From Roseomonas sp. (GTDB lineage Bacteria > Pseudomonadota > Alphaproteobacteria > Acetobacterales > Acetobacteraceae), in NCBI GenBank assembly GCA_020249265.1, contig JADCGA010000004.1, positions 1 through 64,000 on the forward strand: DNA of 64,000 nt, read 5' to 3'. Positions within the stretch are counted from its first letter, which is position 1. Each line of letters begins with the position of its first letter. Both the position numbers and the translations under genes were made by a program. Under the pieces are notes generated by a model that made no database searches, was not told the DNA's origin, and was given only the letters and a program-made list of their open reading frames with translations. This document shows positions 28,534-37,163 of this stretch, piece after piece.

Positions 28534-29282
28534 CCGCGAAAAATCCTGCGCAGCCAGGATTTCAGGCCGCCCCCGTCGGGCGGCCTTTTTTTTGCCCCGG
28601 GAGACTTTTGGTGCGTCACATGCGGGCGCCGCGCCGGGGGGGCGAGGGCCGAGGCTATGCTATGCCGGCCCGCATCTTCCGCCGCGATCAACCGCGCTTC
28701 CAGGGCGGAGACCTGCGCCACCGCCTCGGGCGGCTTGGTCCTGGTGAGTGCCGTGACTGCGGCTTCAGCATCAGCGAAATCCCCCGCACGGCGCAAAGCA
28801 TCAATCACGCGCACTGATTGTTCGGCATCCAAAGCAGGCCCGCTCCGCCACAGCGCCACCGCTTCGCGCCGCCATTGCCGCGCCAAATCGTCGCGGTTCA
28901 GATCATCCGCGACCCAAGCCGCGTGCAAGGTGGCTTCCGCTGCCGCGTGCAAGGCGCCGGTTTCTTCCAGCACATGCGCCCATGCCAAAAAGCGCCGCGC
29001 CAAAACCGGGTGTGATGTATCGGCGATCAGCGCACGATAGGGGGCGGCGGCCACCGCCTCGGCCCCGGCGGGATGCGCTTCACTGATATCAGGCGCGGCA
29101 TAGCCGCAATGCGGGCAGGCTTGCAGCCAGCGCGCCATGGTGGAGCGCACCGGCTCACCCGGCCTTAAATCGAGATCGGGCGCTTGTTCCGGCACGGGCG
29201 GGCGAAATAGCGCCTGGCGGCTTTCATGGCCGCAAACGCCGCAACGCTTCTCCCGCGCGTCAGATGCCCGCGGCGTTGCCAT
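28530..29282 (-). CDS. Zinc-ribbon protein of unknown function
   Basis: The 250-residue protein has two CxxC knuckles, CGVCGHES (about 14-21) and CPHCGYAAPD (about 56-65), likely one structural zinc site, followed by an alpha-helical region resembling TPR-type repeats (ARRFLAWAHVLEETGALHAAAE, ARQWRREAVALWR) and a basic C-terminal tail (KSWLRRIFRG). It may be a DUF2225-like protein; I do not recognise a function. Its ATG overlaps the ppdK stop (TAATG), so it is translationally coupled to pyruvate phosphate dikinase. The last 60 bases double as the terminator region of the opposing gene. Confidence 0.7.
   Translation of the reverse strand: MATPRASDAREKRCGVCGHESRQALFRPPVPEQAPDLDLRPGEPVRSTMARWLQACPHCGYAAPDISEAHPAGAEAVAAAPYRALIADTSHPVLARRFLAWAHVLEETGALHAAAEATLHAAWVADDLNRDDLARQWRREAVALWRSGPALDAEQSVRVIDALRRAGDFADAEAAVTALTRTKPPEAVAQVSALEARLIAAEDAGRHSIASALAPPARRPHVTHQKSPGAKKRPPDGGGLKSWLRRIFRG
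28564..28593 (+). terminator. Terminator of the DUF1127 gene
   Basis: A perfect 9-bp stem, AGGCCGCCC / GGGCGGCCT (28564-28572 and 28578-28586), has a CCGTC loop and an 8-T run. It lies inside the 3' coding region of the convergent minus-strand gene, so the same DNA is coding on one strand and terminator on the other. Confidence 0.85.
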
Positions 29283-31954
29283 TACGCGGTGCGATCAGCC
29301 CCGCCCGATTGCAGCGCCGCCTGCGCCGCCGCCAGCCGCGCCACCGGCACGCGATAGGGCGAACAGGAAACGTAATCCAAGCCGACACTTTCGCAGAAAT
29401 GGATGGAGGATGGATCGCCGCCATGTTCACCGCAAATACCAAGCTTGATATCCGGCCGCACGCTGCGGCCTTTCTCGACCGCGATGCGCACCAAAGCGCC
29501 CACACCGTCCGGGTCAATGGAGACAAACGGGTCCTTCGGGAAAATGCCCTTCTCGATGTAAAGCGGCAGGAACTTGCCGGCATCATCGCGCGAAAGGCCG
29601 AAGGTGGTTTGCGTCAGGTCATTCGTGCCGAAGGAAAAGAAATCCGCGACACTGGCAATGGCATCGGCAGTAAGGGCAGCGCGCGGCAATTCAATCATGG
29701 TGCCGACGCTGTAGACCACGTGATACCCGCCTTCAGCGAAAACCTCCTCCGCGACGCGATCCACCATGGCGCGGGTGATTTCCAATTCGCGCTTGGTCGC
29801 AACCAAGGGAATCATAATCTCCGGGACCGGGGCCTTATGCGTCTTGCGGCCAATTTCCGCCGCCGCTTCGAAAATCGCGCGCGCCTGCATTTCATAGATT
29901 TCTGGGAAGGAAATCCCGAGGCGACAGCCGCGATGGCCAAGCATGGGGTTTGCTTCCGATAATTCCTGCATGCGCCTTTGCATCGCCTCAACCTCGGTGC
30001 CGAGGGATGCCGCGACTTCCGCGATTTCATATTCGCTATGCGGCAGGAATTCATGGAGCGGTGGATCAAGCAAGCGGATGGTGACCGGCAGGCCGGCCAT
30101 GATCTCAAACAGATCCAGAAAATCCTTGCGCTGGAAGGGCAGCAAACGCGCGAGTGCCGCACGGCGGCCTTGTTCCGTTTCGGCCATGATCATCTGGCGC
30201 ACCGCGCCAATCCGCTCAGGGTCGAAGAACATGTGCTCGGTGCGGCAAAGCCCGATGCCTTCCGCGCCGAAGCGCCTGGCGGTTTCCGCATCTAACGGCG
30301 TTTCCGCATTGGCGCGGACACGCAAGCGGCGCACCTTGTCGGCCCAGCCCATCAATGTTGCGAAATCGCCCGAAAGCTGCGGTTCCACCATAGCGACGGA
30401 GCCAATGAAAACCTCACCCGTCGCACCATCCAGCGTGAGGATTTGGCCAGCTTCAATGCGTACGCCCCCAGCACTTAAATACTGGTTGTTGTAATCCACC
30501 GTGACGCCGCCACAGCCCGCCACACAGGGCCGGCCCATACCGCGCGCGACAACCGCCGCGTGGCTGGTCATGCCGCCGCGTGTGGTCAGCACGCCGCGCG
30601 CCGCATGCATGCCGTGAATATCTTCCGGCGAGGTTTCAATCCGCACCAGAATGACGCTTTCGCCTTTTTGCGCACGCGCTTCTGCTTCATCCGCGCTGAA
30701 GACAACAATGCCACACGCCGCACCGGGGGAAGCAGGCAGGCCCTTGGCAAGCAGCTTGCGCGGTGCCTTGGGGTCTAGCGTTGGGTGCAGCAATTGATCA
30801 AGCGCTGCTGGGTTCACGCGCCGCACGGCTTCGGTGTGATCAATCAAGCCTTCGCGCGCCATATCAACCGCGATTTTCAAGGACGCCGCGGCAGTGCGCT
30901 TTCCATTGCGAGTTTGCAACATATAAAGCTTGTTGCTCTGCACCGTGAATTCAATGTCCTGCATGTCACGGTAATGGCGTTCCAGCGTGGCGCGCACCTG
31001 CACCAATTCGGCATAGGCCGCCGGCATGGCATCTTCCATGCTGCGTTCGCTGGGTTTGGAGCGTTCCTTCGCCATGGGTTGCGGCGTGCGGATACCCGCC
31101 ACCACATCCTCACCCTGAGCATTGATCAAATATTCGCCGTAGAAAATATTCTCGCCAGTCGAAGGGTCGCGCGTGAAGCACACGCCGGTTGCGCAATCTT
31201 CGCCCATATTGCCGAAGACCATGGCTTGTACATTGACCGCCGTGCCCCATTCGGCCGGGATGTCATGCAGGCGCCGATAGGTCACCGCGCGCTGGTTCAT
31301 CCAACTGCCAAACACCGCGCCAATCGCGCCCCAAAGCTGCGTTTCAGGATCCTGCGGGAAGGGCCTGCCGGTGACTTCCGCGACCATTTCCTTATAGCCA
31401 TCCACCACGCGATGCCATTCGGATGCGGTGAGTTCCGTATCCTCATTCTTCCCGGTGTCGAGCTTCACATGCTCGATAACTTCCTCAAAGCGGTGATGAT
31501 CAACGTCGAGCACCACGGACCCATACATCTGGATGAAGCGCCGATAGGAATCCCAGGCGAAGCGCGCATCACCGGAAGCCGTGACCAGGCCTTCGACGGT
31601 CTGGTCATTCAGGCCCAGGTTCAGCACCGTATCCATCATGCCCGGCATGGAAACCCGCGCGCCGGAGCGGACGGAGACCAGCAGCGGGCGGTGATGATCA
31701 CCGAAGCGATTACCCACCGCTTCTTCCACCCGCGCCAGGGCCGCACGCACCTGCTGCGCCAGATCATCGGGGTATTTCTGCCCATTATCGTAATAGGCGG
31801 TGCAAACTTCGGTGGTGATGGTGAAGCCAGGCGGCACCGGCAAGCCGATCGAGGCCATTTCGGCCAAATTGGCGCCTTTGCCACCCAGAAGATTCCGCAT
31901 ATCGGCTCGGCCTTCATTGTGGCCGGCGCCGAAGCTATAGACCCATTGTGTCAT
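29282..31954 (-). CDS. ppdK: Pyruvate, phosphate dikinase
   Basis: PPDK interconverts pyruvate + ATP + phosphate with PEP + AMP + pyrophosphate in the cytoplasm. The 890 residues comprise the ATP-grasp domain (GGKGANLAEMASIGLPVPPGF), the swivelling phosphohistidine domain with GGMTSHAAVVARGMGRPCVAG (catalytic His, and the regulatory Thr two residues before it), and the PEP-binding TIM barrel (GLCRTEHMF, LGHRGCRLG, SFGTNDLTQTTFGLSRDD, GICGEHGGDP with catalytic Cys). Length is typical. Its probable regulator, a PSRP kinase/pyrophosphorylase, is encoded at 39.8 kb in this window. Confidence 0.97.
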   Translation of the reverse strand: MTQWVYSFGAGHNEGRADMRNLLGGKGANLAEMASIGLPVPPGFTITTEVCTAYYDNGQKYPDDLAQQVRAALARVEEAVGNRFGDHHRPLLVSVRSGARVSMPGMMDTVLNLGLNDQTVEGLVTASGDARFAWDSYRRFIQMYGSVVLDVDHHRFEEVIEHVKLDTGKNEDTELTASEWHRVVDGYKEMVAEVTGRPFPQDPETQLWGAIGAVFGSWMNQRAVTYRRLHDIPAEWGTAVNVQAMVFGNMGEDCATGVCFTRDPSTGENIFYGEYLINAQGEDVVAGIRTPQPMAKERSKPSERSMEDAMPAAYAELVQVRATLERHYRDMQDIEFTVQSNKLYMLQTRNGKRTAAASLKIAVDMAREGLIDHTEAVRRVNPAALDQLLHPTLDPKAPRKLLAKGLPASPGAACGIVVFSADEAEARAQKGESVILVRIETSPEDIHGMHAARGVLTTRGGMTSHAAVVARGMGRPCVAGCGGVTVDYNNQYLSAGGVRIEAGQILTLDGATGEVFIGSVAMVEPQLSGDFATLMGWADKVRRLRVRANAETPLDAETARRFGAEGIGLCRTEHMFFDPERIGAVRQMIMAETEQGRRAALARLLPFQRKDFLDLFEIMAGLPVTIRLLDPPLHEFLPHSEYEIAEVAASLGTEVEAMQRRMQELSEANPMLGHRGCRLGISFPEIYEMQARAIFEAAAEIGRKTHKAPVPEIMIPLVATKRELEITRAMVDRVAEEVFAEGGYHVVYSVGTMIELPRAALTADAIASVADFFSFGTNDLTQTTFGLSRDDAGKFLPLYIEKGIFPKDPFVSIDPDGVGALVRIAVEKGRSVRPDIKLGICGEHGGDPSSIHFCESVGLDYVSCSPYRVPVARLAAAQAALQSGGADRTA

Positions 31955-31965
31955 GGGGGGGTTCC

Positions 31966-34230
31966 TCAGGCTTCAATCTTGGAGAAATCCGCCACGGCAT
32001 CCATGGCGGCACGAAGACGGGCGAGCAGTCGCAGACGATTGCGGCGAAGTTCCGGCGCGGGATCGTTCACGATCACTTTTTCGAAAAAAGCATCCACCGG
32101 GGCGCGGAGCCCGGCCATGGCTTCCATGGCGCGTTCAAAATCCTCGGCCTCGATATCCAGGCGAATGCGGGTGCCGGCTTCTTCAAGCGCGGCGGCAAGG
32201 GCGGCTTCTTCGGGTAGTTTCAGCAGATGCGCTTCATAGCCGGTATCAAAGGCGTGGCCGTCGCGCTTTTCTTCGATGCGGAGAATGTTCACGGCGCGGC
32301 GATGCGCCGCCAGCAGATTGGCGCCGGCTTCACTTTCCACAAAACCGCGCACCGCATCGGCGCGGGAGAGTAGGCGGTTGAGGTCATCATCCGGCGTGGC
32401 GCCAAACACCGCCGTCACCACATCATGCCGGGCGCCTTCGCCACGGAGTTGGACGCGCAGCCGTTCGGCGAGGAAATCGAGCAAGCCAGCGGCAAAGGCC
32501 GCGACCAAGGGTGGATGCGCGCTGCTGGGCGGGGCCTGCCAGCCGCTGGCACGCTTGGCTTCGGCAATTTCCACGCCGAAATCCGGCGCGGAGGTAGCAT
32601 TGGTGGCTTGTGGGAAAATGAGGAAGGCTTCGCCCATCAAATCAGCCAAGGGCAGCCGCAAGCCATTTTCACGAATGATGCGAATGACGCCGAGCCCAGC
32701 GCGACGCAGCGCGAAAGGGTCACCACTACCGGTAGGCTTTTCGTCCACGGCGAAGAAACCGACCAATTGATCAATCTTATCCGCCAGCGCCACCGCAATC
32801 GCGATGGGCTCCTGCGGCACGGCATCTCCCGCGCCCACCGGGCGGTAATGCGCGGCGATGGCGTCCGCCACGCGCGCATCCTCACCCTGACCCAGCGCGT
32901 AATACCGCCCCATCACGCCCTGCAATTCCGGGAATTCGCCCACCATGCCGGAAGCAAGATCTGCCTTCGCCAACCGCGCCGCGCGCCGCGCCAGCGTCGC
33001 ATCCGCACCCAATTTTTCCGCGATCAGCCCCGCGAGGTTTTCCAGCCGCGCCACGCGCTGGCCCTGTGTGCCAAGCTTGGCGTGGAATACCACGCTATCC
33101 AGCTTGGGCAGGAAGCTTTCCAGCTTTTGCTTGCGGTCCAAATCCCAGAAGAACCGCGCATCAGCCAAGCGCGCGCGCAGCACGCGTTCATTGCCGGCCA
33201 CAATCGCGGCACCACCATCGGGCGCTGCGATATTCGCCACCAACGCAAAGCGCGGCGCTGCTGAGCTATCCATCTTGCGCAAGGCGAAATAGCGTTGATT
33301 GACGCGCATGGTTGTGCGCATCACCTCCGGCGGCAAATCCATGAAGGCATCATCAATCCGCCCGAGCAAAGGCACCGGCCATTCAATCAGGCCCGCGACT
33401 TCGGCAATCAAGCCCTCATCCGGCACCACTTCCAGCCCTTCGGCGGTGGCGAGCGCCGCGATGCCATCGCGGATCATCCGCGCGCGTTCTTCCGCTTCCA
33501 GCACCACATGGCGCGCGGCCAAAGCGGATTTGTATTCGGCGAAGCTGCGCACGGCAAAAGCACCAGGGGACATGATGCGATGGCCTTCGGTCAGATCGCC
33601 ACTCGCCAAACCATGACCATCATCGCCGCCTTGCGCCAGAGTGAACAGCACCACTTCACCATTCAGCACGCACAGAATGCGCTTCAGGGGCCGCACCCAT
33701 ACCATGGAAGATGTGCCACCCCAGCGCATGGATTTCGGCCAGGGGAAGGCGCGGATCAGCATAGGCAATTCGCGCGCCAAGACGGATGCAGGTGCCTCGC
33801 CAGTCAGGGTTCGCCGCATGAAGACATGCGTTGCTCTTCCTGCCTGGGTAGCTTCGAACCGCAGTTGTGAAGGTCCGCCTACATCGAAGACCCCTCCGCT
33901 TTTTAGCGTTGCCAAGCCCTGTTTCGCCCAAGCCCTCGGGTCCTCGCCACGCGGCAAGTGGCTTGTAAGGAAAGCTAATAACGCCTCATCGGGAGCATCC
34001 AAACGAGGCCCCCGCTTTTCGTCTTCCCGTGAGGGGATCGCAGTGCGGATTTCTGCGCGATAGGTGATCCGCCTAGGCCCGAATGCGCGATGCTCGTGTC
34101 GGGGGGGTGATATGCTTTTTCCCAAGAAGTTACGCATTGAATCGCAGAAGCGGTCAGCCGCCGTTTCCTGCATACGCGCAGGTATTTCTTCGGAAAATAG
34201 TTCAATCAGCAGTTCAGCAAATTCAGCCAT
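31966..34230 (-). CDS. glyS: Glycine--tRNA ligase beta subunit
   Basis: GlyS is the tRNA-recognising subunit of the alpha2-beta2 bacterial glycyl-tRNA synthetase. It opens LLIELFSEEIPARMQ, the family hallmark, followed by FPWPKSMRWG, then the HD-like region (KADLASGMVGEFPELQGVMGRYYA) and a C-terminal DALR-type anticodon-binding domain. At 754 residues it is somewhat longer than the usual ~690. The first ~170 codons (33.7-34.2 kb) look AT-richer and less codon-biased than the rest, suggesting recombination. Its ATG lies inside the last codons of vapC (8-base overlap), so its translation is coupled to a toxin gene. Confidence 0.95.
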   Translation of the reverse strand: MAEFAELLIELFSEEIPARMQETAADRFCDSMRNFLGKSISPPRHEHRAFGPRRITYRAEIRTAIPSREDEKRGPRLDAPDEALLAFLTSHLPRGEDPRAWAKQGLATLKSGGVFDVGGPSQLRFEATQAGRATHVFMRRTLTGEAPASVLARELPMLIRAFPWPKSMRWGGTSSMVWVRPLKRILCVLNGEVVLFTLAQGGDDGHGLASGDLTEGHRIMSPGAFAVRSFAEYKSALAARHVVLEAEERARMIRDGIAALATAEGLEVVPDEGLIAEVAGLIEWPVPLLGRIDDAFMDLPPEVMRTTMRVNQRYFALRKMDSSAAPRFALVANIAAPDGGAAIVAGNERVLRARLADARFFWDLDRKQKLESFLPKLDSVVFHAKLGTQGQRVARLENLAGLIAEKLGADATLARRAARLAKADLASGMVGEFPELQGVMGRYYALGQGEDARVADAIAAHYRPVGAGDAVPQEPIAIAVALADKIDQLVGFFAVDEKPTGSGDPFALRRAGLGVIRIIRENGLRLPLADLMGEAFLIFPQATNATSAPDFGVEIAEAKRASGWQAPPSSAHPPLVAAFAAGLLDFLAERLRVQLRGEGARHDVVTAVFGATPDDDLNRLLSRADAVRGFVESEAGANLLAAHRRAVNILRIEEKRDGHAFDTGYEAHLLKLPEEAALAAALEEAGTRIRLDIEAEDFERAMEAMAGLRAPVDAFFEKVIVNDPAPELRRNRLRLLARLRAAMDAVADFSKIEA

Positions 34231-34624
34231 GGGGTTTGATCGCCGGCTCTATATCGGTTGCGGCGAAATCACCGCCCTTGAACAGCAATGTCTGCCCGCG
34301 GTCCTTGGCCAGCGCATAGGAAAAGCAATCGCCGAGGTTCAACCCCGCCTTGTGGCGGCCCTTGCCGTAGCGGCGCCAGGCATCGCGGGCGATTGCGGCA
34401 TGCGCCGCTGTAAAAGGCACTATTTCCGGACGAATGGCGCCCATCAAGGCATCCAGCTTTTCCGCCATGCCCGGTCCTGTCCGACCCTCCGCGATAATGG
34501 CGGTTTCCAGCAAGGTTGGCGCGGCAATTGCCGCGGTATCTGCGTCGCGGATCATGGCAGCCAGGCGCTCTGCCTCAGGCTCCTTGAACAGGATTGCGAC
34601 CAATGCCGAGGAATCAAGAATCAT
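34223..34624 (-). CDS. vapC: VapC-type PIN-domain ribonuclease toxin
   Basis: The 133-residue PIN domain has MILDSSALVAILFKEPEAE at the start (first acidic residue Asp4), Glu in PTLLETAII, and the third and fourth acidic positions in GLNLGDCFSYALAK, ending FKGGDFAATDI. VapC toxins are Mg-dependent endoribonucleases that cut tRNA or rRNA. It overlaps vapB (ATGA, 4 bases) upstream and glyS downstream (8 bases), so it sits inside the glyQ-glyS operon. All four acidic residues are present, so it is probably active. Confidence 0.93.
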   Translation of the reverse strand: MILDSSALVAILFKEPEAERLAAMIRDADTAAIAAPTLLETAIIAEGRTGPGMAEKLDALMGAIRPEIVPFTAAHAAIARDAWRRYGKGRHKAGLNLGDCFSYALAKDRGQTLLFKGGDFAATDIEPAIKPHG

Positions 34625-34869
34625 CGCGGCAGCCCGGTTTCGTCATAAAGATCGCGATGATCGCTGGTCACGCCGGGCGGGACCAGCTTGGAGGCTTCCT
34701 CGGCTATTGCCATGATGGCGTCGAATTTGCGCTGCCGCGCGGCCTTTTCCCGTGCCAGTTTTTCCGCCACCGCTTCGCGGACAGCCCCGGTCGCCGTGGT
34801 GCCGAGCATTGCCGCAAGCTCCTTCGCTTCGGCAATCAGCGCGGCATCCTTGATGTTCAACTGGCCCAT
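34621..34869 (-). CDS. vapB: VapB-family antitoxin
   Basis: The 82-residue protein starts MGQLNIKDAALIAEAKELAA, followed by GTTATGAVREAVAEKLARE, the hallmark of the Rv0623-like VapB family, in which an N-terminal ribbon-helix-helix binds DNA and the C-terminal tail (about 60-82) wraps the toxin. It directly precedes and overlaps vapC. It lies 58 bases after the glyQ stop, so a promoter of its own is possible in that gap, in addition to read-through from glyQ; autoregulation by VapBC at such a site is expected from the family. Confidence 0.92.
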   Translation of the reverse strand: MGQLNIKDAALIAEAKELAAMLGTTATGAVREAVAEKLAREKAARQRKFDAIMAIAEEASKLVPPGVTSDHRDLYDETGLPR

Positions 34870-34927
34870 GGCGCACCTTTGGTAGAAAGCGCATAGAATA
34901 TGGTAGAAAATCCCCGAAAGCGCAAGA

Positions 34928-35791
34928 TCAGGCCGCCTCGCCGGCCAGCCAGGCCTCGCAGCAGCCCTTCGCCAGCGTCCGCACGCGGCCGATATAGGCG
35001 GCGCGCTCCGTCACGCTGATCGCCCCTCGCGCATCCAGCAGGTTGAAGCGATGCGATGCCTTGATGCATTGGTCATAGGCCGGCAAGGCGAGCTTCCGCT
35101 CCAACAGCGCGGCGCATTCGGCTTCTGCATCCTCAAAATGGCGGAACAGCATTTTGGTGTCGGCGGCTTCGAAATTATGGGCGCTGTATTCGCGCTCAGC
35201 CCGCAGGAACACATCGCCGTATTTCACGCCTTCGCCGTTGAAATCCAGGTCGTAAACATTCTCGACCCCCTGGATATACATGGCCAGGCGTTCCAGCCCG
35301 TAAGTCAGTTCGGCGCTGGGTTTCTCACAGGCAATGCCGCCTACCTGCTGGAAATAGGTGAATTGCGTCACCTCCATCCCATCACACCAGACTTCCCAGC
35401 CCAGGCCCCAGGCGCCGAGTGTCGGGCTTTCCCAATCATCCTCAACAAAGCGGATGTCATGCAAGGCAGGGTCAATGCCAAGGGCGCGATAGCTTTCAAT
35501 CAGCAGCGCCTGCGGGTCTGCGGGCGATGGCTTCAGGATCACCTGATATTGGTAATAATGCTGTAGGCGATTGGGGTTTTCGCCATAGCGGCCATCGGCG
35601 GGGCGGCGCGATGGCTGTACATAGGCGGCCTTCCAGGGCTTTGGGCCAAGGGCGCGCAAGGTGGTCGCCGGGTGAAAGGTGCCGGCACCCACTTCCATGT
35701 CATAGGGCTGCAGGATCACGCAGCCCTGATCCGCCCAATAGCGATGCAGGCGCAGGATGATGTCCTGAAAACTGGGCGGCTTGGCGGTCAT
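34928..35791 (-). CDS. glyQ: Glycine--tRNA ligase alpha subunit
   Basis: GlyQ is the catalytic subunit that activates glycine. The 287-residue protein contains [56 protein letters not shown] and [20 protein letters not shown], all highly conserved. The start at 35791 ([10 protein letters not shown]) is chosen because that is where family similarity starts. The open frame extends upstream, but with a non-conserved stretch. It is the first gene of glyQ-vapB-vapC-glyS. Confidence 0.97.
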
Positions 35792-35870
35792 GCTGGTTCT
35801 ATGCTCTGGCGCGGCGGCAATGAGGGGTGCTCTATAGGCACCGCAGGCCCCTCGGGCAAGGAATCCCGCC

Positions 35871-36275
35871 ATGACCAATGTGCAAGAAATCATCGCCGCT
35901 TATCTCGCGGTCTTTAATCGCGGGGATTGGCCGGGCATGCTGGCGTTGCTGGCCGATGATGTGGCGCATGACATCAATCAGGGCGCCACACAGCACGGCA
36001 AGCCGGCCTTCGCCGCGTTCCTCGACCATATGGCGCGCTGCTACCGTGAAGAATTGCGGGATATCGTGATCATGGCGGGGCCGGATGGTAGCCGTGCGGC
36101 AGCAGAATTTCGGGTTGAGGGGGAATATTTGGCCACCGATGAAGGGCTGCCGCCGGCAAAGGGCCAGCGCTATTCCCTGCCCGCCGGGGCCTTCTATGCG
36201 CTGCACGATGGCAAGATCACGCGCGTCACGGTGTTCTACAATTTGCAGGATTGGCTCCGCCAAGTGGGCGGCTGA
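35871..36275 (+). CDS. SnoaL-like (NTF2-fold) protein
   Basis: The 134-residue protein has an NTF2-like fold: an N-terminal helix pair ([33 protein letters not shown]), then strands and the C-terminal [24 protein letters not shown]. It is similar to ketosteroid isomerase-related / SnoaL-like proteins, which may be enzymes or ligand binders. The function is not predictable. The ATG at 35871 lies 79 bases from the divergent glyQ start, and the stop lies 39 bases before aroE, so it may be part of the aroE-coaE-dnaQ transcript. Confidence 0.82.
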
Positions 36276-36314
36276 ACGCTTGCTTTCCGGCTGGCTGAAG
36301 TGCTTTCTGGTGGG

Positions 36315-37163
36315 ATGAAGCTTTTATCCGGTCATGCCCGGCTCGCCGGGGTTTTCGGCTTTCCCGTCACCCATTCGCGCTCCCCGCGGCTGCATGGGTA
36401 CTGGCTGCAACGCTATGGCATTGATGGCGCCTATATCCCGCTTGGCGTGGCGCCGGAACGCTTTGGGCATGCGGTGCGGTCTTTGGTGGATCTCGGCTTT
36501 CGCGGCGCCAATGTCACCATACCCCATAAGCTCGCGGCCTTTGAGATTTGCGATGGGGTCGCGCCCTTCGCCCGCCGCGCTGGGGCCGTGAATACACTGA
36601 TTTTCCGGGATGGGCGGATTGAGGGGTCAAATACTGATGGCTTCGGCTTTCTGGAAAGCATCCGTGACGCTGCGCCTGGCTGGCGGGCCGATGCCGGCCC
36701 TGCGGTGCTTTTGGGCGCGGGTGGTGCAGCGCGGGCCATTGCCGCCGCTTTGCTCGATGCCGGCGCGCCGCGTGTAACGCTAGTGAACCGCACCACTGCG
36801 AAGGCCGAGGCTCTGGCGCGTGATCTTGGCGGGCCGATTCATGTGGCGGATCGGGCTCCGTTGGAAGACGCGGCTTTGCTCGTGAACACAACCTCGCTCG
36901 GCATGCAGGGTCAGCCGCCGTTGGAGATGGACCTGAGCCCCTTAGCCACGAGCGCCGTGGTTGCCGATATTGTCTATGTGCCGCTCGCAACCCGCCTTCT
37001 GGCGGCGGCGCGGGCGCGCGGCCTGATTGCAGTGGATGGGCTTGGCATGTTGCTGCATCAGGCGCGGCCGGGCTTTGAGGCCTGGTTCGGCGTGGCGCCA
37101 CAGGTGGACCAGGCTTTGCGCGATGTGGTGGCGGCCGATATTCCAAAACGTGATGGCGCATGA
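36315..37163 (+). CDS. aroE: Shikimate dehydrogenase (NADP+)
   Basis: AroE reduces 3-dehydroshikimate in aromatic amino acid synthesis. The 282-residue protein has the shikimate-binding FGFPVTHSRSPRLHGYW, the catalytic Lys in NVTIPHK, GAVNTL, the nucleotide-binding GAGGAARAIAAALLDAG and NRTTAKAEAL, and the closing DGLGMLLHQARPGFEAWFG. ATG 36315 follows GGTGGG; an in-frame GTG at 36300 is the less likely start. Its stop overlaps coaE (ATGA). Confidence 0.96.
   Translation: MKLLSGHARLAGVFGFPVTHSRSPRLHGYWLQRYGIDGAYIPLGVAPERFGHAVRSLVDLGFRGANVTIPHKLAAFEICDGVAPFARRAGAVNTLIFRDGRIEGSNTDGFGFLESIRDAAPGWRADAGPAVLLGAGGAARAIAAALLDAGAPRVTLVNRTTAKAEALARDLGGPIHVADRAPLEDAALLVNTTSLGMQGQPPLEMDLSPLATSAVVADIVYVPLATRLLAAARARGLIAVDGLGMLLHQARPGFEAWFGVAPQVDQALRDVVAADIPKRDGA

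Follow-up and report, generated by a model that had tools for sequence, protein, structure and literature searches.

A conserved VapBC30-like toxin-antitoxin module between glyQ and glyS in Roseomonas and its relatives, probably entrenched and with a predicted operator of its own

How does a toxin-antitoxin pair come to lie between glyQ and glyS, whose products together form an essential aminoacyl-tRNA synthetase, and what keeps it there? The question is raised by a 64,000-nucleotide stretch of a Roseomonas sp. genome (assembly GCA_020249265.1, contig JADCGA010000004.1, family Acetobacteraceae), referred to below as the window, in which the minus strand reads glyQ-vapB-vapC-glyS. The initial annotation described a VapBC pair inserted in the glycyl-tRNA synthetase (GlyRS) operon and fused translationally to glyS. 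The order was borne out by the coordinates of the open reading frames (ORFs) and by the Pfam naming of all four genes, and the same coordinates gave the reported overlaps of 4 bases between vapB and vapC and 8 bases between vapC and glyS. The fusion holds for the overlapping reading frames; there is no protein fusion. We consider it probable that a module resembling VapBC30 and VapBC10 is an old resident of the roseomonad glyQS operon, is entrenched there, and carries an operator, and presumably a promoter, of its own, from which glyS would also be transcribed.

All four genes lie on the minus strand. The alpha subunit gene glyQ (ORF 34928-35893; tRNA-synt_2e PF02091, E = 1.8e-146; NCBIfam PRK09348) has its homologous part beginning near 35791, so that its true start is likely there and not at 35893. 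It is followed by vapB (34621-34869), which encodes a VapB30-like antitoxin of 82 amino acids (PSK_trans_fac PF07704, E = 3.4e-16), and by vapC (34223-34624), which encodes a PIN-domain ribonuclease toxin of 133 amino acids (PIN PF01850, E = 1.7e-17). The vapC stop and the glyS start share the 8 bases ATGGCTGA (34223-34230), and glyS (31966-34230) encodes the beta subunit (tRNA_synt_2f PF02092, E = 4.2e-161; TIGR00211).

The pair is conserved rather than unique, which the initial annotation had missed. We surveyed 35 genomes of the genus and 100 Acetobacteraceae genomes, one per genus. VapC search matches were found in 27 of the 35 and in 45 of the 100, and the coordinates placed the best VapC a few hundred bases past glyQ in all 27 vapC-positive genus genomes. 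A glyQ match was present in 126 genomes; the glyQ region was taken from 120 of them, which together with the window gave 121 loci (G100, G114, G115 and the partial G082 and G103 were left out of the classification). The proposed survey of glyQ-glyS spacing in Acetobacteraceae thus gave 41 loci with vapBC behind glyQ, five with a remnant and 73 without vapBC, that is, 41 carriers among 119 classifiable loci, and two loci were unclassified. Twenty-four genus loci had vapBC and six did not; among the 91 loci outside the genus, the numbers were 17 with vapBC, five remnant, 67 without and two unclassified. Behind vapC, glyS was visible in 40 of the 41 carriers, and the remaining one (L055) stops inside vapC at a contig end. 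No opposite-strand vap gene was matched in any of the 121 loci. Recurrence of this gene order in other genomes excludes an assembly error at the junctions, and a recent one-off insertion was rejected on the 41 of 119 loci. Retention of the pair across the family agrees with the suggestion that it is a stabilising insertion into an essential operon.

The arrangement also recurs in a second, named collection. Among 80 kept VapC relatives, 15 adjoin glyQ and/or glyS, and they belong to Roseomonas, Belnapia, Falsiroseomonas, Plastoroseomonas, Roseococcus, Rubritepida and three unclassified bins (L166-L168 of this collection presumably equal genomes G121, G131 and G112 of the genus sample). None of the 29 best out-of-family VapC loci (L247-L275) adjoins glyQ or glyS, no vapBC was found between glyQ and glyS in 40 Alphaproteobacteria from other families, and the out-of-family VapC and glyQ rows had no common place by eye among the matches listed. 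Spread of the arrangement beyond the family was rejected on these results. In the 40 other-family regions the glyQ-glyS gap was at most 20 bases in 33, 20-200 bases in five and larger in two. Rare non-toxin genes separate glyQ and glyS in two loci outside the family (L320 and L323); we take them to resemble genes for aspartate decarboxylase and a PhzF-type protein. Neighbouring genes were also compared: the 17 loci linked to glyQS shared 136 of 136 pairs and 12 unlinked family loci shared 6 of 66. The former figure is true by definition, because linked loci were chosen by glyQ/glyS, and the comparison only shows that no site is shared to a like degree by the unlinked loci.

The junctions are as regular as the order. 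The vapB/vapC overlap is 4 bases in 36 of the 37 carriers measured, and the glyQ-vapB gap is 55-63 bases in 30 of the 37 carriers with a located vapB. The distance from vapC to glyS, measurable in 40 carriers, is -8 in 18, -1 in nine, +1 to +5 in 12 and +14 in one; the tight abutment noted in the window, within -8 to +5 bases, is therefore found in 39 of 40. In the six vapC-less genus loci shown, glyQ and glyS overlap by 8 bases at the glyS start codon. It follows that vapC replaced glyQ at the glyS start in the carriers. The glyQ-glyS gap is at most 20 bases in 63 of the 73 Acetobacteraceae loci without vapBC; one gap of 789 bases (L119) holds an unrelated ORF of more than 250 codons with no VapB or VapC match. 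The remnant loci (L067, L071, L073, L087 and L097) were picked by eye. L071 has only an antitoxin-like ORF and may therefore be a different event. Extra antitoxin-like ORFs without a toxin of their own were also seen, in L057 and L079 upstream of a full vapBC, and in L067 beside a vapC remnant.

The control region, which the initial annotation had also missed, would offer a further link between the module and glyS. The glyQ-vapB gap of the window (58 bases, 34870-34927, minus strand) is a putative internal promoter and VapB operator, judging from its conserved length and motifs. It contains the paired element TTCTACC-N14-TTCTACC (34881-34908, minus strand), which has no other match in the 3.96-Mb genome. 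The exact pattern occurs once each in 26 of the 35 genus genomes, always just upstream of vapBC, with no match for the reversed control; these are 26 of the 27 vapC-positive genomes and none of the eight vapC-less ones. In the 100 family genomes it matches 13 times in 12 genomes (the reversed control twice), and 11 of the 13 matches lie at the vapBC of the glyQS locus, ten with glyS visible behind and one (G075) where the contig ends in vapC. In G014 (C206:2675-4182), two direct operators among the 13 lie about 820 bases apart by a further vapBC. At least two TTCTACC cores were scored in 33 of the 41 carriers and one core in two, and none was found in the 73 empty glyQ-glyS junctions. Locus L053 was scored without an operator, the scanned stretch being too short, and its operator was located by the genome-wide pattern search. 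The operator is thus nearly exclusive to this place and is retained in the gap across distant genera.

Unlinked vapBC pairs of the same PF07704/PIN families, from many phyla, share the TTCTACC/GGTAGAA core upstream: it was found in 52 of 103 unlinked homologues and in 4 of 103 random controls. These pairs lie away from glyQS. Among the 28 of them with at least two cores, 16 have the inverted form GGTAGAA-TTCTACC at 18-20 bases and none has a direct TTCTACC pair at 21 bases. Because the core is shared by these homologues, the paired element is best read as the predicted autoregulatory operator of this VapB family. A TTGC...CATAT arrangement in the gap, conserved across 23 genus sequences, is a candidate promoter.

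In two genomes (G043 and G049), the sole PF02092 match is not behind glyQ; it is preceded by operator-vapB-vapC and followed by ppdK. The glyQ of G043 is on a different contig from glyS. The next ORF upstream of operator-vapBC points the opposite way in both, and in G049 it is a DUF3280 gene. The vapBC region thus stands before glyS in place of glyQ; glyS in these genomes would most simply be transcribed from that region or within it, probably by the vapBC promoter. In G080 the glyQ-glyS gap is expanded to 2.6 kb, and vapBC and the operator still adjoin glyS. A 2.6-kb gap was recorded in locus L053 (1237-3841), where a beta-lactamase-family ORF (PF13354) and a second large unnamed ORF lie ahead of vapBC. 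In G043, G049 and G080, then, it is glyS and not glyQ that the module and its operator accompany. Part of what the initial annotation had counted against a link, namely that vapBC and glyS have a promoter of their own, is probably the case; yet the link becomes stronger by it, since a single operator would then govern vapBC and glyS alike.

The two proteins seem to be functional in most carriers. Mycobacterium tuberculosis VapBC30 (PDB 4xgq, 4xgr) is the only PDB sequence match for both window proteins. The match of VapC to the solved VapC30 (4xgq) is strong (E = 5.4e-31) and that of VapB to VapB30 is weak (E = 0.021); the C-terminal core GKGRH.AGLN.GDCFSY...LLFKG.DF..TDI is common to both systems. 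The acids D4, E40, D99, D119 and D124 of VapC are invariant in 10 diverse sequences. In 40 full-length carrier VapCs, D4, E40 and D124 are kept in all 40, D99 in 39 and D119 in 37; which of the five are catalytic we take from general knowledge of PIN domains. With a PIN toxin that has conserved acids and a small DNA-binding antitoxin gene directly upstream and overlapping the toxin gene, the pair is, by its sequence, a VapBC30-like type II module. Among 17 genus relatives, the median ratio of nonsynonymous to synonymous substitution rates (dN/dS) was 0.19 for vapB, 0.14 for vapC, 0.14 for glyS codons 1-300 and 0.03 for glyQ (pairs with dS outside 0.05-1.2 were dropped). Both vapB and vapC are under purifying selection, and the low ratios together with the kept PIN acids suggest that both proteins function in most carriers.

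The likely target of the toxin was approached through its nearest characterised relatives. According to one study, VapC30 and the alphaproteobacterial VapC10 cleave the anticodon loops of tRNA-Ser, their sites being (U/C)G^A and CU(U/G)G^AA, and the VapC10 of Sinorhizobium meliloti, called highly homologous to VapC30, cuts the anticodon loop of tRNA-Ser(GGA/UGA) (PMC10945364). We scanned the loops of 42 distinct tRNAs recovered from the window's genome. Of these loops, those of tRNA-Ser GGA and UGA alone contain the VapC10 site, CU[UG]GAA. No GA step is present in the anticodon loops of tRNA-Gly CCC and TCC, the two recovered here; a tRNA-Gly GCC gene was not recovered in the assembly, and the result covers CCC and TCC only. 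If specificity is conserved, a glycine-specific loop is an unlikely target, and tRNA-Ser(GGA/UGA) is the most likely one.

On these grounds the following mechanism is proposed. A VapB-type operator and a presumed promoter would sit in the glyQ-vapB gap, and glyS, with ppdK, would be transcribed in two ways, by read-through from glyQ and from an internal promoter autoregulated by VapBC. With the vapC stop overlapping or abutting the glyS start, ribosomes ending vapC could initiate glyS, which would couple the two translations. The module would persist mainly through entrenchment, because a simple deletion would take away, along with the antitoxin, both a promoter of an essential gene and the upstream frame to which its translation is coupled. 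When VapB is degraded, vapBC-glyS-ppdK would be derepressed while VapC cleaves its tRNA.

A number of observations do not sit well with this proposal. The pair is absent from 73 of the 119 loci and must therefore be dispensable, and often lost or exchanged. The glyQS tree, on which 19 of 121 loci were represented by GlyQ alone (GlyS being absent or the assumed frame running into a stop), needs 21 changes for the vapBC state vs 34 when shuffled, so the state is clustered but patchy, and within the 17 closest relatives VapB and VapC distances do not track those of GlyQ (r about 0.1 or less). No core was scored in carriers L057, L075, L099, L110 and L125, only one in L124 and L158, and the inverted operator form is present in the linked loci L049, L060, L171, L172, L178, L189 and L210; the direct operator was hence rejected as a mark of every linked locus. 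A sigma-70 consensus scan of the E. coli type, which other promoter types would escape, found no promoter in the gap; one of the E. coli type was rejected there, and the internal promoter is a presumed one. Among the separated loci, the G049 assembly has no glyQ match and the upstream opposite-strand ORF of G043 has no Pfam match. One or two PIN acids are replaced in the VapCs of L053, L099 and L110 (D99 by E, D119 by G or E), which may therefore be weakened or inactive, though still encoded before glyS. The looser VapC30 site, (U/C)GA, is present in nine of the 42 tRNA loops, several of them not tRNA-Ser.

The patchiness leaves room for a different history, in which several independent insertions of related vapBC modules hit one site. 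We hold this to be possible, if not our choice over one ancestral event. Besides the 21 state changes, it could account for the presence of both the direct and the inverted operator at linked loci, the glyQ-vapB gaps of only 27 and 39 bases in L049 and L060, and the second antitoxins of L057 and L079. However, the linked VapCs cluster: on a tree with 67 linked and 104 unlinked rows, near-copies included, the linkage label changes five times against a shuffled mean of 53, and six times after removal of duplicates and nine long rows. The approximately unbiased test, applied to 54 linked and 95 unlinked VapCs, did not reject a single clade of the linked ones (P = 0.42; removal of 13 duplicates and 9 long rows took the set from 171 to 158 to 149). 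In Mantel tests over 35 loci, VapB (r = 0.89) and VapC (r = 0.79) distances track those of GlyQ. These 35 of the 41 carriers leave out L053, L055, L125 (no clean glyS frame) and L075, L099 and L109, which had no vapB BLAST match, though an antitoxin-like ORF was visible by eye. The simplest reading is a single ancient insertion with later losses or replacement.

Whether residence has turned into use is a separate matter. We put forward only tentatively that VapBC was recruited as a regulator of glyS, and of ppdK, through a VapBC-repressed promoter, which would be the only glyS promoter in lineages like G043 and G049, while the VapB/VapC recognition segments were swapped without disturbing operator binding. 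If so, stress that degrades VapB would raise GlyS while VapC cuts tRNA-Ser. That the entrenchment is selfish and nothing more, removal harming glyS or freeing the toxin and the operator having no useful effect on glyS, we regard as rather unlikely. The patchy presence and the five decaying remnants would be expected from it, as would the two remnants (L073 and L087) that still reach the glyS start with a -1 overlap, and toxin-antitoxin genes seem to have come and gone repeatedly, to judge from the additional antitoxin-like ORFs between glyQ and glyS in L057, L067 and L079. It fits less well with an operator kept across distant genera and with vapBC, not glyQ, before glyS in two genomes, neither of which proves usefulness.

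Covariation within the module suggests another reason for keeping it, namely diversifying toxin-antitoxin recognition directed at phage, plasmids or rival modules, with the glyQS position incidental. Among the 17 relatives, the VapB C-half and the VapC N-half covary (r = 0.95; partial Mantel 0.93, P = 0.0002), their correlation with GlyQ or GlyS being about 0.1 or less, and the flanking VapB N-half and VapC C-half are more conserved; which halves serve toxin binding and which DNA binding we take from general knowledge of the family. The covarying halves adjoin in the DNA, however, so ordinary recombination of one segment explains their correlation, and the partial correlation falls to 0.48 over all 35 loci. 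PADLOC models gave zero families for vapB or vapC at E up to 0.001, on which membership of a PADLOC anti-phage defence family was rejected. We think this explanation improbable. As a separate observation, the two halves (window 34223-34869 and L137-L165) form a few linked allele types, which change as one block between close relatives.

Charging-linked control, which the initial annotation had raised and in which VapC would cut tRNA-Gly and toxin output would be tied to GlyRS capacity, has the neighbourhood alone in its favour and is very improbable, a tRNA-Gly target having been rejected because the nearest characterised toxins cut tRNA-Ser at G^A (PMC10945364) and the CCC and TCC loops have no GA; given the VapB-type operator in the glyQ-vapB gap, a transcriptional link to glyS is likelier.

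The purpose and persistence of chromosomal toxin-antitoxin modules is an open question. In its own host the VapBC30 of M. tuberculosis is, so far as we know, a stand-alone module, and it is not known to us to lie in the operon of an aminoacyl-tRNA synthetase. S. meliloti VapBC10, an alphaproteobacterial system connected with the window VapC through the described homology of VapC10 to VapC30, is a chromosomal vapBC10 operon for which the accessible text mentions no glyQS (PMC10945364). The nearest known arrangement found, as far as the accessible text goes, is the mazEF module of Staphylococcus, which lies immediately upstream of the important regulatory sigB operon, and loss of mazF left sigB transcription unchanged (PMC6879715). 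Unlike the present case, sigB is no aminoacyl-tRNA synthetase gene and mazEF does not split subunit genes. A vapBC in the glyQS operon was undescribed in the titles and abstract openings among the matches listed from open-licence PubMed Central, and one paper that contains glyQ, glyS and vapC uses them unrelatedly in its accessible text.

The kind of module is thus known, and its place is unusual, conserved and probably regulated. The novelty lies in its probable entrenchment, with a subunit gene of an essential enzyme on either side, and in the likelihood that one of these genes is controlled by its operator. If true, this would be a case of a toxin-antitoxin operator controlling an aminoacyl-tRNA synthetase subunit. 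The module is held across a family in a needed operon, and since the operator is retained and relatives show empty, remnant and separated states, entrenchment and regulatory recruitment can be directly tested against each other.

The remaining features concern the surroundings of the module. Rfam gave no match at E up to 0.1 over 31500-36500, and an RNA leader or riboswitch at the locus was rejected on this result; a special RNA fold in the glyQ-vapB gap was rejected as well (z = -0.45), and no terminator-like hairpin was called on the minus strand within 34870-34927. Pyruvate phosphate dikinase is encoded by ppdK (29282-31954, minus strand; TIGR01828, 1405 bits), which starts 11 bases past the glyS stop and is probably the last gene of the glyQ-vapB-vapC-glyS transcription unit. 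It lies at most 150 bases from glyS in all 37 measurable carriers, in the five remnant loci and in 43 of 69 loci without vapBC. Lying so close behind glyS in the carriers, ppdK may be transcribed from the vapBC promoter as well. Finally, among the 17 close relatives the mean protein distance was 0.207 for GlyS and 0.025 for GlyQ, and GlyS does not track GlyQ, which suggests exchange of glyS alleles or fast evolution.

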